This document shows, in pieces, positions 842 to 7,384 of a stretch of 7,771 bases of DNA (position 1 is the first letter of the stretch; every line of letters begins with the position of its first letter). Location of the stretch: assembly GCA_020061125.1 (NCBI GenBank), contig JAGUYV010000380.1:1-7771 (forward strand). The letters are read 5' to 3'. Source of the DNA: a bacterium. GTDB taxonomy: Bacteria > UBP15 > UBA6099 > DSWB01. The position numbers and the translations under genes are program-made. The notes beneath the pieces are model-generated. The model was not told the DNA's origin. It worked only from the letters and a program-made list of their open reading frames with translations, and did not search any database.

Positions 842-2866
842 TCAAATATTGCCGGGAATAAACCCGTAATACCGGCCCATCCAGTAGGGCGTGATCATGT
901 CTATGCCCTGGAAATAGCGGTCTCCGGTGGGCCAGTTGCTTCCGATTTTGTACGGGCTTCTCTGCCACTGGAAATCGCTGGTCACGCGGTACTGCACGGG
1001 CAGCGGCTCGCAGGCCCAGTCCGGGTGATCGGGCACGGCCGCAAATGTCATGGGAACTTTAGGCTCGAATGCTTTGCGCGGGCCGTGGGGGAAGGCCATG
1101 AGTTCGCTAACCGCGCCGAAGATGCGGCGCGGCTCGCGCGCGCCCTGCGCAGCCAGGTACTGCCAGGTAAAGTGCGGATTGCGCTCGCGCCCCGCGCGCC
1201 GCGCCGTGGGCGCATCACAGCCGCTTCCCTCGGGAATTTGCTTTTTGTCTTCCCAGAAGTACCGGATGGTGTCCCTGTACTTGTCCGCCAGCTTGGGGTT
1301 CGGCTCGAACAGAATCAGGTGATAGTAGTTGTTGAACAGCAGATTCAGGTTGAACCACACGGTTTCGTAGTAATCGTTGTAAGCCTCGCCGTACACATAG
1401 ACCTTCTTGAGATTGCCCACATAATTGCACTCGAACTCGCGGCCCGGTTCCGAAGAGGGGCATTTGGACACCATGCCCATGACGCGCGCGCGCCAGGTTT
1501 CCCGGAGTTGCGGATCCGGGGCCGCGGCCGCGGCCAGACCGAACCAGTTCAGCAGCATGGCGCTGTTCATTCCGTTGGGAACCTTCACGGCCGGGTTCAC
1601 ATAGGGGTCGTAATTTTTCTCGCCATCGGAATCCTGGATGCCCCACCCGCTCATCACGCCGTGGCGCGTGTGCTTGCCGTCCACATCCATGATGTGCATG
1701 TTGTTGTCCCAGATGTGCGCGGCCATGGCCGTGATGTTTTCGGCGGCGCGTGCCGCGAAATCCGGCTCGTTCAGAATCTGCCAGATGATGGCGTTGCCCC
1801 AGAACACGCCTGTGAACTGGTCGCGGCTGGCCGTGCCACGGAAGCGCCACCCCTTGTACTTTCCTTCCTTGACTTCGTACTGGTTGTGCGCAGGGTCAAT
1901 GTCAATGATGGGCTTGTCGCGGCGGCCCTTCCACTCATCCACCTCATAGGAACGCGCGATGAGGCCGGGCACGCCCGTGATCTCGCGCAACTGCGTCATG
2001 CCCGTGAGGCATTTTTCCACATTGGCGCGCGCATAGTCCTCGCCCGTGACCGCGTAATAGAACGCCGCGCCTCCGCAATAGGTGCCGGTCCAGATGGCGG
2101 TGTCGCCGTAGCCCGCGTACGAGCCGTCATAGTACATCTCGTGCGCCAGGCCCGTGGGGGACATGACCTCGTCGTAGTGCTTGTTGTATTCGCGGGCCTT
2201 GGATTCGAGCCAGCCCGGGGCCGAGGGGTCCGCGGCGCTGCGCAGGGCGTAGAACTCCTCGGAGGTTGCTCCTGCGGCGTCTCGGGCGGAAACCACCAGC
2301 AAAACCACGGCTTCCCTGTCCGGAGCGGCCGCAGTGAGCGCACAATCGCCACCGATCGCCAACCATTCCGGCGCCGCGTCCACGGCGGGCGCGGGTGCGC
2401 CGGGTTCGGCCGCATCCGCGTAAAAGGTGCGAGCCATCTCGATTCGGCACCCGCCGTACGGGGCCGCCCCGCCCTGCCCCTGTATCTGCACGCGCACGGT
2501 TTCGCCCAGTTTGACCGCGGGCAGATCCCTATAGATCAGCCGGAACTCCGGAGCAGCGGCGGCGAACGCCACCTCGCCCTCGGCGGCGGCGCCGTCTGCA
2601 CCCGTGACTTTGATAACCGCGCTCGTGCGCTCCACCGCCGTTGGCAGACCCGCGATGCGGCCGTCTCGCGTGATGCGCAATCCGTAAGGAAGTTTGCCGG
2701 AAATCAATTTCACGGAACCGGGCTGCGCCACGCCCTGCGCCTGCACGGGCGCGTCGAACGGCTTGCCGGCCGCGATGGCGTCCGCACCCGGAACGCTCAC
2801 GCCCGACGCAAGCGCGGGCGCGTGGAGCAGAAACAATAGAGCTGAAAGCGCGATGATTCGTGTCAT
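842..2866 (-). CDS. Secreted protein with Ig-like domain and probable alpha/alpha-toroid (six-hairpin) domain
   Basis: A 674-residue protein. Residues 1-20 are a clear Sec signal peptide (MTRIIALSALLFLLHAPALA, probable cut after ALA), so it acts in the periplasm or outside the cell. Residues about 35-105 resemble putative Ig (He_PIG-type) domains, with the motif GKLPYGLRITRDGRIAGLPT. Residues about 110-210 look like a second beta-rich region. From about 215 to the end the chain is rich in W, Y, F and N, with helix-like stretches such as DTAIWTGTYCGGAAFYYAVTG (about 255-275) and WFNLNLLFNNYYHLILF (504-520), typical of six-hairpin glycosidase or polysaccharide-lyase toroids. I cannot assign a family, substrate or catalytic residues. 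Start: ATG 2866 has AGGGGGG (2875-2881) eight bases upstream and begins directly with the signal peptide. It is divergent from the ModE-like gene, which may regulate it. Secretion is secure; the enzymatic role is inference. Confidence 0.85.
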   Translation of the reverse strand: MTRIIALSALLFLLHAPALASGVSVPGADAIAAGKPFDAPVQAQGVAQPGSVKLISGKLPYGLRITRDGRIAGLPTAVERTSAVIKVTGADGAAAEGEVAFAAAAPEFRLIYRDLPAVKLGETVRVQIQGQGGAAPYGGCRIEMARTFYADAAEPGAPAPAVDAAPEWLAIGGDCALTAAAPDREAVVLLVVSARDAAGATSEEFYALRSAADPSAPGWLESKAREYNKHYDEVMSPTGLAHEMYYDGSYAGYGDTAIWTGTYCGGAAFYYAVTGEDYARANVEKCLTGMTQLREITGVPGLIARSYEVDEWKGRRDKPIIDIDPAHNQYEVKEGKYKGWRFRGTASRDQFTGVFWGNAIIWQILNEPDFAARAAENITAMAAHIWDNNMHIMDVDGKHTRHGVMSGWGIQDSDGEKNYDPYVNPAVKVPNGMNSAMLLNWFGLAAAAAPDPQLRETWRARVMGMVSKCPSSEPGREFECNYVGNLKKVYVYGEAYNDYYETVWFNLNLLFNNYYHLILFEPNPKLADKYRDTIRYFWEDKKQIPEGSGCDAPTARRAGRERNPHFTWQYLAAQGAREPRRIFGAVSELMAFPHGPRKAFEPKVPMTFAAVPDHPDWACEPLPVQYRVTSDFQWQRSPYKIGSNWPTGDRYFQGIDMITPYWMGRYYGFIPGNI

Positions 2867-2917: not shown

Positions 2918-3021
2918 AAAACCGGGACGCTGCGGGCGGGACGGCGTTGCGGCGCGAGGCGAACGGGAGTAAAATCAAGCCAGATCCGCAACCGGCGCGG
3001 CGCGCGCGCCAGGGGGACGCC

Positions 3022-3354
3022 ATGAAGGTGAAAGTCAAGGTCTGGCTGGAGAAGGACGGCCGCAGCGTAATGGGCGGCGGACGGTATGCGCTTCTGAAAG
3101 CCATTGATGAAACCGGATCCCTGCGCGAAGCGTGCGCGCAACTCGAAATCTCGTACCGACACGCCTGGGGGCACATCAAGAAGCTGGAGCAGAGCGCGGG
3201 ATTCGCGTTCGTGGACTCCAAGGTGGGCGGCCGCGGCGGCGGTGCATCGGCCCTCACGCCACAGGCCCGCGAATTCCTCAAACAATTCGATGAACTCAAA
3301 TCCGACATCGAGCAATATGCGGAGCAGCGCAACAAAGACATCAAACAGCAATGA
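3022..3354 (+). CDS. ModE-type winged helix-turn-helix regulator, DNA-binding domain only
   Basis: A 110-residue protein matching the N-terminal LysR-like DNA-binding domain of the molybdate regulator ModE. The order is typical: GGGRYALLKAIDETGSL (18-34), then EACAQLEISYRHAWGHIKKLE (36-56, helix-turn-helix with YRHAW in the recognition helix), then a glycine-rich wing KVGGRGGGASALTP (67-80), and a C-terminal helix (81-108) likely to dimerise. The C-terminal molybdate-binding MOP/TOBE domains of full ModE (about 260 residues) are absent, so molybdate sensing cannot be assumed. ATG 3022 was chosen because AGGGGG (3011-3016) lies just upstream and the homology begins there. The frame is open further upstream to 2947, but that extension is arginine-rich and looks untranslated. 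It is divergent from the secreted-protein gene and convergent with the C45 gene. Its targets are unknown; the shared upstream region is the natural first candidate. Confidence 0.85.
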   Translation: MKVKVKVWLEKDGRSVMGGGRYALLKAIDETGSLREACAQLEISYRHAWGHIKKLEQSAGFAFVDSKVGGRGGGASALTPQAREFLKQFDELKSDIEQYAEQRNKDIKQQ

Positions 3355-3403: not shown

Positions 3404-4591
3404 TCAATGCGCGGCCGCAGCGCTTGCGGCAGGTTTGCTCTTTGCGAACAAGGGAACAGGCGCCCATTGCGCCTGGCAGGGGTTGCCCTCGGCGAACCAC
3501 ATGGTCCGGCTGGCGATGTCGAAGATCATGCCGGAGAGCGTGGACCCGCTGTGGCCGTGGCAGCAGACTGTGTAGTCGCTGCCTTTGGGGTCGTCGCCGC
3601 TGTGATCCGACAGAATGGTCTTGATGGTGTCAATCGTCACCTTGCCCGCGGCCTGTTTGATGAGGCGGTCCGCGGCGTCGTAGCGCTTGTGGGACGATGT
3701 GGCGTACTCAAGCCCCTCCATGCCCTTGACGGTCCAGTAGGTGCCCTCGGGCAGATTGGCGTCCGTCATGTTGATGTAGTGGTTGGTCTGGGCCATGACG
3801 CCCTCGGGGCCGGGGCGGCGCACCATGGTGCGGCATGCGGTGAACTCCACGATGGCGTTGTCCCCGGACTCGTCCATGAAGCCGAAGAACCCGGCGTTGG
3901 CGCGCGCCGGGAACTGCTGGATATATTCCATGGCCTGGGCCGTGGTGCGGCATGTTTCGAGAATTTCATTGATGATCATCATGTAGGGCGCGCCGGTGTA
4001 GGACAGGTCCGGCCCCTTCCACAGGCGGGCGTTGTTGGCGCCCACCACGAGGCCGGCCTCGTTCATGCCCATGTGGCATCCGGCGCTGGGGCACTGGGTC
4101 ACGGTGAGGGTGGCCAGGCGGTCCGGCTCCGAGGGCAGCATGCGGCGCACAATCTGGAAGTCGCGCAGCAGGTTGGGAAAATCGTAGTTGCGCGCCATGA
4201 GCGGGGTTCCGGCAACCGTGGCGTGTGGCTGCGCGTGGACCTGCGTGCACCCGCCGGGCGCCTTGAGCGATTTGCCGGCCTCGCAGAACATGATCTCCAT
4301 GAACTGCAGGCCCCACACATAGCCGCGGCCCATGCCCAGACCGTCGGCCAGCCCGTCCGTGCGCTCGGCCTGCGCGGGCATGTGCCGCATGACTGCGCGC
4401 CGCGTTACGCGGTTGCCGATCACGCCCAGCGCGGCTTTGACCACGGACACCGGGATGGGCGCGGGCCGGTTGTCCAGCCACATCTCGGATGTGAAAAATG
4501 TGTTCAGCATGTCCCGCGTTTTCTCGCGCATTTCCATACCCTGCATGGCGCCGCGCTCGTATGCCGTGCCCGTGAGTTCAAGTATCTGCAT
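3404..4591 (-). CDS. C45-family Ntn-hydrolase / acyl-CoA:6-aminopenicillanate acyltransferase-like protein
   Basis: A 395-residue protein of the peptidase C45 / penicillin acyltransferase-like family. These enzymes are Ntn-hydrolases: the precursor cleaves itself before a cysteine, which becomes the N-terminal nucleophile for amide hydrolysis or acyl transfer. The expected site is GGCTQ with Cys115, followed by MARNYDF (132-138) and NEAGLVVGANN, a family hallmark. Mature subunits of about 114 and 281 residues would result. The N-terminal ELTGTAYERGAMQG is also typical of the family. No signal peptide or membrane segment is visible, so it is probably cytosolic. Start: ATG 4591 has AAGGAG six bases upstream. 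A longer GTG start at 4636 exists but would place this ribosome site inside the coding region. The C-terminus is a low-complexity KSKPAASAAAAH tail. It lies 84 bases downstream of the amidohydrolase gene and is probably co-transcribed with it. The family is confident; the substrate is unknown, and beta-lactam activity should not be inferred. Confidence 0.88.
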   Translation of the reverse strand: MQILELTGTAYERGAMQGMEMREKTRDMLNTFFTSEMWLDNRPAPIPVSVVKAALGVIGNRVTRRAVMRHMPAQAERTDGLADGLGMGRGYVWGLQFMEIMFCEAGKSLKAPGGCTQVHAQPHATVAGTPLMARNYDFPNLLRDFQIVRRMLPSEPDRLATLTVTQCPSAGCHMGMNEAGLVVGANNARLWKGPDLSYTGAPYMMIINEILETCRTTAQAMEYIQQFPARANAGFFGFMDESGDNAIVEFTACRTMVRRPGPEGVMAQTNHYINMTDANLPEGTYWTVKGMEGLEYATSSHKRYDAADRLIKQAAGKVTIDTIKTILSDHSGDDPKGSDYTVCCHGHSGSTLSGMIFDIASRTMWFAEGNPCQAQWAPVPLFAKSKPAASAAAAH

Positions 4592-4675: not shown

Positions 4676-5728
4676 TCAAACAGCCTGCGCCAGAGGCGCG
4701 TTGCCGCACAGGTTGTACTGGCGGATCAGGCGGAAGGCATTGCCGGACAGAATCAGATCGCGGGACTCGCGGTCTTTGTCCGTGGCCACAAGCACCTTGG
4801 CCAGCGGCAGGATAATGGGATAGAAAGGCCAGTCCGTGCCGAACAGGATTTTGTCGTTGCCCAGAGTGTCAATCATGCGCTGGATGTTCTGCGGGGGCTG
4901 GCCGCCGATTTCGAGGCAGGTGTTGCCGTGCGCTTTGGCGTATTCGACCGCGGTTTCATAGAACAGCATGCCCGCGTGCCCGAGGATGAACGGGATTTCC
5001 GTGAATTTCTTGAGCGGTTCTTCGTACAACTCCATGTCCGACAGCTTGCGGAGCAACGAGGGTTCGAGTCCGTTGTTGGCCGTGTGGAACAGGATGGGCA
5101 GTCCGGTGCGGCTCCAGCGCTTGTAAAGCTGCATCATTTTGGGATGGTTCGGTGGCAGGAACTGGGCGTAGGGGTGCACCTTGAGTCCGCGCGCGCCCAT
5201 GGCCAGGCATTGTTCGAGTTCCTCCTCCCAGCGGCGCGCGTTCACATTGATGGCGCAGAACGGGATGAGCCGCGGGTTGCCCTGCAGGTATTTGGCCTGG
5301 TGCAGGGAGTTGTTGGAACCGCCGGGCAGGTCAATGGCCAGCACCACGGATTTTTCCACGCCCATGCGGTCCATTTCCTCGATGATGTTGGGAATGGTGT
5401 AGGTGGCGTTGGCGCCCTTGTTGGTGAAAATGGTGTGCGCGTGGTCGCTGAAGGTGCCGTTGCGGCGGGTGTTGCGCAGATTCACGCCCGAGTACAGGGA
5501 CAGGTCAATGGGCAGCTCGTCGTGGCGGAAGCAGTGGTCCACGGCATCCGTGCGCCGGAAAAGATCAATGGGCCGCGACAGATAGAAGGACGAGCCGAGG
5601 TGGGTGTGGAAATCCACGATGGGCGGCGCGTCCTCCAGGGCCAGCACGGGTTTGCCGTCCGCGTTCATTTCAAAATACGGCAGGCGTGTGAGATCGTTAC
5701 AGTTTGAAAAGGTTTGTGGTGTGGACAA
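4676..5728 (-). CDS. Metal-dependent amidohydrolase (amidohydrolase 2 / COG2159 family)
   Basis: A 350-residue TIM-barrel hydrolase with the expected active-site set: HTH in DFHTHLG (His41, His43) at the end of strand 1, LKVHPYAQ (Lys183, His185), LFHTANNG (His215), LGHAG (His251) and FGTDWPFYP (Asp299). Family members are zinc- or manganese-dependent hydrolases or non-oxidative decarboxylases. The motif pattern fits the general amidohydrolase 2 group but does not name a substrate. There is no signal peptide, so it is cytosolic. The start codon is TTG (5726-5728), supported by AAGGAG seven bases upstream. The next in-frame ATG, at residue 21, has no comparable site. It is the first gene of a likely two-gene unit with the C45 hydrolase and follows the HTH gene in the same direction after 84 bases that hold a candidate promoter. 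Family assignment is strong; the reaction is unknown. Confidence 0.9.
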   Translation of the reverse strand: MSTPQTFSNCNDLTRLPYFEMNADGKPVLALEDAPPIVDFHTHLGSSFYLSRPIDLFRRTDAVDHCFRHDELPIDLSLYSGVNLRNTRRNGTFSDHAHTIFTNKGANATYTIPNIIEEMDRMGVEKSVVLAIDLPGGSNNSLHQAKYLQGNPRLIPFCAINVNARRWEEELEQCLAMGARGLKVHPYAQFLPPNHPKMMQLYKRWSRTGLPILFHTANNGLEPSLLRKLSDMELYEEPLKKFTEIPFILGHAGMLFYETAVEYAKAHGNTCLEIGGQPPQNIQRMIDTLGNDKILFGTDWPFYPIILPLAKVLVATDKDRESRDLILSGNAFRLIRQYNLCGNAPLAQAV

Positions 5729-5757: not shown

Positions 5758-5776
5758 TGCATTATTTATTGTGACA
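5758..5776 (-). repeat. 19-bp AT-rich site, copy 1 (candidate operator or terminal inverted repeat)
   Basis: The minus strand reads TGTCACAATAAATAATGCA. The plus strand at 6326-6344 reads TGTCACATTATTTATTGCA. The two are identical at 15 of 19 positions and differ only by A/T swaps in the centre. They therefore face each other across the HTH gene. This copy overlaps the candidate -10 and start region of the amidohydrolase promoter. Confidence 0.55.
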
Positions 5777-5793
5777 ATTTTTGCCGTTGCCAA
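5765..5793 (-). promoter_or_regulatory. Candidate promoter of the amidohydrolase-C45 unit
   Basis: The minus strand has TTGGCA (5788-5793, five of six to the -35 consensus), a 17-base spacer, and AATAAA (5765-5770, four of six to the -10 consensus). Transcription would start near 5758, giving a leader of about 30 bases that contains the AAGGAG site. The -10 and start region fall inside the 19-bp site at 5758-5776, a normal place for a repressor to bind. Confidence 0.4.
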
Positions 5794-5794
5794 T

Positions 5795-5810
5795 CGTGGC
5801 GCGCGCCACG
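5795..5810. promoter_or_regulatory. Perfect 16-bp palindrome CGTGGCGCGCGCCACG
   Basis: The two halves CGTGGCGC and GCGCCACG are exact complements. It begins two bases past the HTH gene's stop codon and ends one base before the candidate -35 of the amidohydrolase promoter. As RNA it could form a six-bp stem with a GCGC loop, but no U-tract follows, so it is a poor intrinsic terminator. As duplex DNA it is a plausible binding site for a dimeric regulator just upstream of a promoter. Confidence 0.45.
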
Positions 5811-5812
5811 GG

Positions 5813-6295
5813 TCATTCCTGGTCCGGAGCCAGGCCGAACAGGGGCATGCCGCGCTGGCGCGGCGCGCCGGGCCGCAGTTCGTTGAGATAATTGCGCGCC
5901 TGCCGGGTCTTCACCTTGATGCCGAAGCGGCGCTGCAGGTGGAGCTGGAGCTTGTGCGCGTTCCACTTGCCGCGGGGCAGGCCGAACACGCGGGGATCCT
6001 CGAGCAGATCCTCTTCGAGCTGGCGCTTGGATTCGTCTGACAACTGGCTCGGGCGGCCCGGCGGCGGGGTCTTTTCAAGCGCCTCCAGGCCCTCTTCGTT
6101 CACCTGGTGCACCCACCGGGTCATGGTCTGGCGGCTCAACCCGAACACCTTGTTCAGTTCCGTGGGCCGGTGGCCTTCCTTGAGCAATATAAGAATGGCG
6201 ATTTTCAGCCCGGTCCACGCGCCGGGGATCTCCTTGGCCTTGCGCAGCAGCGCATCCACATCCACGGTCTTGTTGTCAATGTTGAGAGCTTTCAC
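5813..6295 (-). CDS. Stand-alone IS630-type helix-turn-helix protein
   Basis: A 160-residue DNA-binding protein resembling the N-terminal half of IS630/Tc1-mariner transposases. Residues 29-66 form a homeodomain-like HTH (LKIAILILLKEGHRPTELN, then GLSRQTMTRWVHQVNEEG). A linker follows with GRPSQLS at 80-86, an AT-hook-like GRP motif. A second winged-helix unit spans about 88-141 (GKWNAHKLQLHLQRRFGIKV, then TRQARNYLNELR). A complete IS630 transposase is about 340 residues with a DDE domain next. Here the protein stops at 160 and only 84 bases separate it from the next gene, so no catalytic domain or remnant fits downstream. It cannot be an autonomous transposase. It could be a domesticated regulator or a truncated IS. 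The start is GTG (6293-6295) with no ribosome site but a near-consensus promoter immediately upstream. The flanking 19-bp inverted sites make it the candidate regulator of itself and the amidohydrolase gene. Confidence 0.8.
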   Translation of the reverse strand: MKALNIDNKTVDVDALLRKAKEIPGAWTGLKIAILILLKEGHRPTELNKVFGLSRQTMTRWVHQVNEEGLEALEKTPPPGRPSQLSDESKRQLEEDLLEDPRVFGLPRGKWNAHKLQLHLQRRFGIKVKTRQARNYLNELRPGAPRQRGMPLFGLAPDQE

Positions 6296-6302
6296 AAAAA
6301 CC

Positions 6303-6331
6303 AGTATAGCACGCCCAAATCAATATGTCAC
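6303..6331 (-). promoter_or_regulatory. Near-consensus promoter of the HTH gene, probably leaderless
   Basis: The minus strand has GTGACA (6326-6331, five of six to -35), exactly 17 bases, and TATACT (6303-6308, five of six to -10). The expected start is six to seven bases downstream of the -10, at 6295-6296, which is the G of the GTG start codon or the base before it. No Shine-Dalgarno sequence precedes the codon, which fits leaderless initiation. The -35 lies within the 19-bp site at 6326-6344. Confidence 0.65.
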
Positions 6332-6344
6332 ATTATTTATTGCA
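6326..6344 (+). repeat. 19-bp AT-rich site, copy 2 (candidate operator or terminal inverted repeat)
   Basis: The plus strand reads TGTCACATTATTTATTGCA, the inverted partner of the site at 5758-5776 (15 of 19 identical). It covers the -35 of the HTH promoter. The two copies also share the exact 12-mer CATTATTTATTG on the plus strand (5760-5771 and 6331-6342), because the core is nearly symmetric in A/T content. Confidence 0.55.
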
Positions 6345-6494: not shown

Positions 6495-6520
6495 AAAAAG
6501 AGCGGCCACTTGCGGGCCGC
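6495..6520 (-). terminator. Rho-independent terminator of the SCP2-like gene
   Basis: On the minus strand GCGGCC (6515-6520), a seven-base loop, GGCCGC (6502-6507), then TCTTTTT. This is a GC-rich stem followed directly by a U-tract, 37 bases past the TAA stop at 6557. It is the best terminator in the window and separates this gene from the HTH gene. Confidence 0.8.
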
Positions 6521-6556
6521 CCGGTGGTTTCTTTTGGGAATGACGCGATTGCGCGG

Positions 6557-7318
6557 TTATCCGAGGTACTGGGAAATGCGGCCCATGATGTAGCTCAAAT
6601 CCCCGAACAGCGGGATGAAGCCGCGCAGCACGATGTCCCCGCGGCCGATGGCGGCCATGGTGTCCAGTTCGCCGCTCAACATGCCGTACGCGATCTTGAG
6701 GTCCTTGACTTCCAGCTCCACGCTCGGGGACGCGGTCTTGCCCTTGCTCGGGAACAGGGTCTGATCCTTGACATCCATGTAGGCGAACGGCCCGTCCGGG
6801 AGCACGGCGAACTGGGCGCAGCCGTCGGCCAGATGATGCACGGTCGGCTCCACGCCGGGGTCGTACTCGGCGATCTCCCGCATGCCGAACACCGCGGTGT
6901 TCAGCAGCAAAGTGACCGTGCGCTTGAGCCGGACGGGGTCTTCCAGGTCCGCGGCGGAGGGCTTGAGGGTCTTTTCCATGGCTGCGGTCAGTTTCATGAA
7001 TTTCAGCAGAATGATGAGGTGCAGCAGGCCCTTTTTGGGCATGGGCTTTGTCACGCCGTCCATCATGTCCACGATGTCCTTGACCGAATCGAAGGTGAAC
7101 AGCACCGTGGGGCTGGAGTGCGCGCCCTGCTTGACCTTGAGATTGCCGCCCTGGAATTCCAGGTGAGCGGCCGGGCCGCCGTTCAGCACCTCGAACTGGA
7201 TCACATTGTTCCAGCCCCGCACCATGCGCTTGAGCTGCGGGTCGAGTTCCATGAGGGTTTCAAGATGCGGAAGCAGGACTTTGAGAAACAGGTTGGCTTT
7301 GATCACATTCGGGTCCAT
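6557..7318 (-). CDS. Protein with two SCP2-like lipid-binding segments
   Basis: A 253-residue protein (MDPNVIKANLFLKV...). Two stretches resemble the SCP2 sterol-carrier fold. Residues about 38-115 include NVIQFEVLNGGPAAHLEFQG, then SSPTVLFTFDSVKDIVDMMDG. Residues about 166-250 include CAQFAVLPDGPFAYMDVKDQ, then SVELEVKDLKIAYGMLSGEL and end in a hydrophobic helix. SCP2 domains hold fatty acyl chains or sterol-like lipids in a hydrophobic tunnel and are about 110 residues, so a tandem arrangement fits the length. No signal peptide; probably cytosolic. Start: ATG 7318 has GGGAG six bases upstream. In-frame alternatives are ATG 7357, whose start codon overlaps a candidate -10, and TTG 7384, so 7318 is preferred. 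It has its own promoter and terminator and is probably monocistronic. The SCP2 call is from pattern and is moderately sure; the ligand is unknown. Confidence 0.8.
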   Translation of the reverse strand: MDPNVIKANLFLKVLLPHLETLMELDPQLKRMVRGWNNVIQFEVLNGGPAAHLEFQGGNLKVKQGAHSSPTVLFTFDSVKDIVDMMDGVTKPMPKKGLLHLIILLKFMKLTAAMEKTLKPSAADLEDPVRLKRTVTLLLNTAVFGMREIAEYDPGVEPTVHHLADGCAQFAVLPDGPFAYMDVKDQTLFPSKGKTASPSVELEVKDLKIAYGMLSGELDTMAAIGRGDIVLRGFIPLFGDLSYIMGRISQYLG

Positions 7319-7355
7319 GGCAGTCTCCCGTGCCGGTTTATCTTTCAAGGTCTGC

Positions 7356-7384
7356 ATTGTATCACCTGCCGGTTGAATATTCAA
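7356..7384 (-). promoter_or_regulatory. Promoter of the SCP2-like gene with a palindrome over the -35
   Basis: The minus strand has TTGAAT (7379-7384, four of six to -35), exactly 17 bases, and TACAAT (7356-7361, five of six to -10). Transcription would begin near 7349, leaving a leader of about 30 bases with GGGAG before ATG 7318. The -35 is the left half of a perfect 12-bp palindrome, TTGAATATTCAA (7373-7384), a possible operator. Confidence 0.5.

Follow-up and report, generated by a model that had tools for sequence, protein, structure and literature searches.

A stand-alone IS630/Tc1-type helix-turn-helix protein as the probable autoregulator of scattered metabolic genes through asymmetric 19-bp sites

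In ISY100, a bacterial Tc1/mariner element, a domain of two helix-turn-helix (HTH) units with an AT-hook-like linker binds a 24-bp end, and in Tc3 the major groove receives the two HTHs and the minor groove the linker (PMC2170065). A domain of this ancestry serves as a regulator in animals, where the Pax paired (PAI+RED) domain is thought to be derived from a Tc1-like transposase (PMC4901127). For bacteria, the excerpted text of a further account of regulators derived from mobile elements covers Xre/Ner-SfsB and antitoxin-derived RHH proteins, which come from phage repressors and antitoxins, and that excerpt does not mention IS630-type domains (PMC8987985). The locus described here resembles those covered in the excerpt in that a mobile-element DNA-binding domain appears to have been co-opted for metabolic genes, but differs in the origin of the domain. 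We found no IS630-derived bacterial regulators in the open-access literature, which is weak evidence of novelty.

The window that we analysed, 7,771 nucleotides long, is a whole contig (G000:C358) of the host metagenome bin (4.1 Mb, estimated completeness 79%). It contains a gene for a small HTH protein, with amidohydrolase and C45-family acyltransferase/hydrolase genes downstream of it (Table 1). Pfam identified HTH_32 and HTH_29 in the protein and no recognised ligand-binding domain in its 160 residues. Its two HTH units, at approximately residues 26-75 and 87-140, are joined by a PPPGRP stretch (77-82), and the DNA-binding domains of ISY100, Tc3 and Sleeping Beauty (PAI+RED) likewise have two HTH units and a short GRP-type linker. 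The NCBIfam IS630 transposase model NF033545 aligned residues 32-140 with model positions 3-108 of 299 (E 4e-22; 79 bits, below the cut-off of 100 set for a whole protein). The protein thus shares the first 108 positions of the IS630 profile with the IS630/Tc1/mariner group and matches only the DNA-binding third of these transposases. Unlike them, it has no DDE catalytic domain, ending after the HTH region, and no transposon ends; it is encoded by a single-copy gene, and the sites associated with it lie in promoters. A regular-expression test found no DDE-type signature in the frames flanking the gene, whose neighbours are unrelated enzymes. The nature of the family suggests that the HTH protein descends from a transposase and not the other way round.

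Several distant relatives of the protein are IS630 OrfA-like, some with an adjoining OrfB-like frame. Plasmid matches fell below 60% identity, those listed being approximately 30% identical and annotated as HTH proteins or IS630 transposase, and no relatives were found in viral contigs. The only relative elsewhere in the host genome, at 28% identity, is a 284-aa protein (G000:C432, L002:1435-2289, plus strand) that combines an IS630-type HTH with a DDE-like region. Its catalytic motifs look degraded by eye and its end is cut short; it may be a second IS630 protein that has degenerated or been domesticated. A PDB sequence search with the HTH alignment returned nothing credible. The predicted structure, which is weak (mean pLDDT 64), consists of two helical bundles around the PPPGRP stretch, and this stretch is invariant between the protein and the orthologue described below. 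Structure searches with this model of pLDDT 64 gave no significant match, and no transposase or paired domain stood out; with the same low-confidence model, Foldseek listed Pax8, prd and Pax6 at E 3-4, and VIA gave prd (1pdn) at Z 4.2 with an rmsd of 14.1 over 104 residues. Two other features of the window were recorded. A G+C-rich, terminator-like inverted repeat at 6497-6540, just downstream of an SCP2-domain gene (6557-7384, minus strand), separates that gene from the HTH promoter region. Another small gene of HTH type (2947-3354, plus strand; Pfam HTH_1, LysR/ModE-like N-terminal domain) is divergent from a gene (842-2866, minus strand) whose 674-aa product is an exported protein of unknown function.

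A sequence-only reading of the window had pointed out two inverted 19-mers that bracket the HTH gene, identical at 15 of 19 positions with all four differences being A/T swaps. Direct reading bore this out (TGTCACAATAAATAATGCA on the minus strand at 5758-5776 and TGTCACATTATTTATTGCA on the plus strand at 6326-6344). The promoter overlaps that it described also hold: the second site covers the HTH -35 GTGACA, 17 bp upstream of TATACT, and the first covers AATAAA, which follows TTGGCA at a distance of 17 bp, and stops 29 bp short of the amidohydrolase start. Promoter assignments at these and all other targets are consensus matches. Since the HTH start codon follows the -10 TATACT by only 6-7 nt (window 6295-6308; L118 462-492 in the relative G001), both genomes probably produce a leaderless HTH mRNA. 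When the window was searched with the pattern TGTCACANTANNTANTGCA at up to three mismatches, two matches were obtained against a shuffle mean of 0.04, although this count is not an independent test because the pattern was derived from both sites. An unbiased test, which asked for an inverted pair with at least 15 of 19 identities, one member in each of the gaps on either side of the HTH gene, succeeded in 2.5% of shuffles, and pairs of that quality number in the hundreds across the whole window when overlaps are counted, so that the pair by itself is only suggestive. In the 19-mer the blocks TGTCAC and TTGC are conserved, and the centre between them is mostly A/T. Two other identities for it were considered and rejected: it is not palindromic, as a palindromic dimer operator would be, and its blocks lie approximately 3 bp too far apart for a sigma-54 promoter (TGGCAC/TTGC).

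Table 1. Features of the window and motif copies elsewhere in the host genome. Positions that carry no contig label refer to the window; G001 is a relative from a different family.
Feature	Position	Strand	Basis or remark
HTH regulator gene	5813..6295	-	160 aa, GTG start; without catalytic domain; Pfam, NCBIfam
HTH promoter -10 TATACT	6303..6308	-	Sequence; start codon 7 nt downstream; arranged alike in G001
HTH promoter -35 GTGACA, within predicted operator	6326..6331	-	Consensus match, 17-bp spacer; conserved in G001
Predicted operator at the HTH gene's own promoter, overlapping -35	6326..6344	+	Exact motif match before HTH gene; same place in G001
Candidate amidohydrolase promoter -35 TTGGCA	5788..5793	-	Consensus match only
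Candidate amidohydrolase promoter -10 AATAAA, within predicted operator	5765..5770	-	Consensus match only
Predicted operator before the amidohydrolase-acyltransferase pair, over candidate -10	5758..5776	-	19-mer match
Amidohydrolase (Amidohydro_2), putative target	4676..5728	-	Orthologue in the HTH gene cluster of G001
C45-family acyltransferase/hydrolase (Pfam AAT), putative target	3404..4591	-	Similar G001 gene with its own exact site
Exact site before alpha/beta hydrolase with divergent Gfo/Idh dehydrogenase	C46:6292		
Exact site before second amidohydrolase (paralogue)	C90:487		
Exact site before class-III aminotransferase	C419:2463		
One-mismatch site before TPP enzyme gene	C46:1441		

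Copies of the motif were then counted genome-wide by pattern searches. With the two-site pattern, other close copies in the host bin lay among chance matches. A refined motif, TGTMACWNTWWTWWTTGCM, settled on after sites had been seen, has four exact copies in the 4.1-Mb host bin, all of them upstream of genes, while its reversed control gave none even at one mismatch. The sequence-only reading had held that copies upstream of genes without the HTH would favour an operator, and most copies are indeed single and precede metabolic genes that have no HTH gene beside them. A PWM was built from nine sites in the two genomes, and these sites, being the ones that trained it, score 24.9-32.6 bits; the amidohydrolase site of the window, with two mismatches to the refined motif, scores 24.9. 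At three other targets, the genes for the TPP enzyme, the alpha/beta hydrolase and the second amidohydrolase, 48-50 bp separate the start of the site from the best -10 candidate (consensus matches), which puts the site on the upstream side of the best -35 candidate, where activators also bind. Since its position relative to the -35 and -10 candidates varies among targets, the site is not simply a promoter element. Weaker matches (one or two mismatches) in the host and in G001 were excluded, those examined being inside genes or beside unrelated genes. A further one-mismatch copy, TATAACTATTTTTATTGCA at C195:4382-4400 (L140), is found approximately 150 bp upstream of a small-heat-shock-like gene and has no clear place in the regulon.

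Only two genomes, the host and G001, carry the HTH gene. G001 is one other genome of the order, belonging to a different family, and its HTH orthologue is 59-64% identical. When named genomes were scanned, the HTH protein had no match, and a scan with the HTH alignment gave one contig, JAJRTR010000195.1 (bin Dive96_bin1.91), with the match starting as in G001. Conservation of the sites beside HTH orthologues was a point on which the sequence-only reading had staked its proposal. At the HTH promoter of G001 the site is kept in the same place, on the same -35 (GTGACA-17 bp-TATACT), and the remaining upstream region has diverged. The HTH gene there is followed by TPP enzyme and amidohydrolase genes, with a degenerate site before the TPP gene. 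Beyond the one at the HTH promoter, G001 has just two exact sites, one before an acyltransferase gene (C139) and one before an enoyl-CoA hydratase-aminotransferase operon (C170). The amidohydrolase, acyltransferase, TPP enzyme and aminotransferase are tied to the regulator or the site in both genomes, in differing gene order, the acyltransferase correspondence being based on visible sequence similarity alone. A site is present in one genome only for the alpha/beta hydrolase, the second amidohydrolase and the enoyl-CoA hydratase. Because the reversed control produced two matches in G001 at up to one mismatch, individual sites in that genome carry weight mainly through the genes that they precede.

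Taken from these sequence comparisons, it is very probable that the 19-mers are operators of the stand-alone IS630/Tc1-type HTH protein, which would be an autoregulated transcription factor with a scattered regulon. The alternative that fares best, though still an unlikely one, is that the 19-mers are operators of a different regulator and that the HTH gene is merely one of its targets. Binding by the HTH protein itself is a prediction, and the genome encodes other small regulators. However, no regulator other than the HTH gene turned up in association with the site in both genomes, and a bipartite site without palindromic symmetry is in keeping with a paired-type domain of two HTH units. Moreover, five members of the order in which no HTH was detected have no exact site anywhere in their bins, and their TPP and amidohydrolase orthologues are present with no site upstream; absence of the HTH is less certain in two of these five bins, as their completeness is 80% or less. 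In the HTH-less genomes the best PWM match per locus scored mostly 1-10, with one at 19.

It is very doubtful that the HTH gene is instead carried by a miniature IS630-like element of 577-587 bp whose terminal inverted repeats are the two sites, the rival that the sequence-only reading itself had raised. The protein is of IS630 type, the sites bracket its gene in inverted orientation, and the HTH gene of G001, among different neighbours, is likewise flanked by a good site and, at its opposite end, by a degenerate one. That second G001 site, however, has five mismatches and may be just a promoter (-10 TATAAT). Several copies with a shared interior would be expected of such an element, whereas the HTH gene is single-copy and the majority of the remaining sites occur singly upstream of metabolic genes. 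A target-site duplication would also be expected, but reading of the sequence revealed no TA directly flanking the 19-mers at both ends, and the version trimmed to TA (5763-6339) gained no support. Across the nine sites, mean pairwise identity was 78% within the 19 bp and 27%, the level of chance, in the 30 bp on either side, indicating that nothing longer was copied with the sites; with flanks unrelated and the gene in single copy, the mobile-element explanation fails. Finally, a chance likeness of two A/T-rich promoter pieces is scarcely credible, for although the pair alone is only mildly unusual among shuffles and TGTGACA resembles a -35, the exact genome copies against an empty control, all upstream of genes, and above all the presence of sites before equivalent genes in a second family refute it in practice.

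Strong support for the operator explanation comes from the second family, in which the site is kept both at the promoter of the HTH orthologue and at corresponding target genes. We infer binding of the HTH protein to the 19-mers, and the direction of control, from sequence. The protein would bind each asymmetric, bipartite site, probably as a monomer, with one HTH unit on the TGTCAC block, the other on the TTGC(A/C) block and, judging from ISY100 and Tc3, the linker in the A/T-rich centre. Like the asymmetric 24-bp end of ISY100, the two blocks around an A/T centre fit two-HTH-plus-linker binding. An operator over the regulator's own promoter, with more before metabolic genes, is also what ordinary autoregulated one-component regulators show, but here the site is asymmetric, unlike a dimer palindrome, and the protein has no recognised ligand-binding domain. 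By occupying its own -35 the HTH protein would limit its own synthesis. Repression, as the sequence-only reading had proposed, is suggested at the HTH and amidohydrolase genes because the sites overlap the -35 and the candidate -10, but less so at the TPP enzyme, alpha/beta hydrolase and second amidohydrolase genes, where a site upstream of the -35 would permit activation as well. The proposed switch on the neighbouring hydrolases is likewise upheld in part: the amidohydrolase has its site, but the system appears to be a scattered regulon and not only a local one. Single sites would control the amidohydrolase with the acyltransferase, the second amidohydrolase, the TPP enzyme, the class-III aminotransferase (with enoyl-CoA hydratase in the relative) and the alpha/beta hydrolase and/or its divergent Gfo/Idh neighbour. 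The host aminotransferase (C419, L029:1118-2347, minus strand) has aminopentol aminotransferase as by far its best PDB match (6hbs, E 2e-91), a hint at the regulon's substrate class. The TPP enzyme is related to acetolactate synthase, oxalyl-CoA decarboxylase and 2-hydroxyacyl-CoA lyase. As a guess, the C45 hydrolase, aminotransferase, TPP enzyme and enoyl-CoA hydratase would together suit the breakdown of acylated amino compounds.

We lean towards regarding the HTH protein as a bacterial counterpart of Pax, in which an IS630/Tc1-type two-HTH domain without its catalytic part has become the regulator of scattered metabolic genes and has retained the bipartite, monomer-type reading of DNA by which transposases recognise transposon ends. 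Pax and other paired-domain factors share with it the bipartite site and the use of a transposase-type domain as a regulator; they differ in being animal proteins and an independent case, and a comparison of folds using the low-confidence model did not establish a likeness to the protein of the window. Small IS630-type HTH proteins are usually annotated as parts of transposases. A defined operator and target set conserved across two bacterial families would make the conversion of a transposase into a regulator testable in bacteria, with an asymmetric, monomer-type operator as the concrete prediction, and similar cases may be found by searching for IS630-type HTH genes that stand alone and have a promoter motif seen again elsewhere in the genome.
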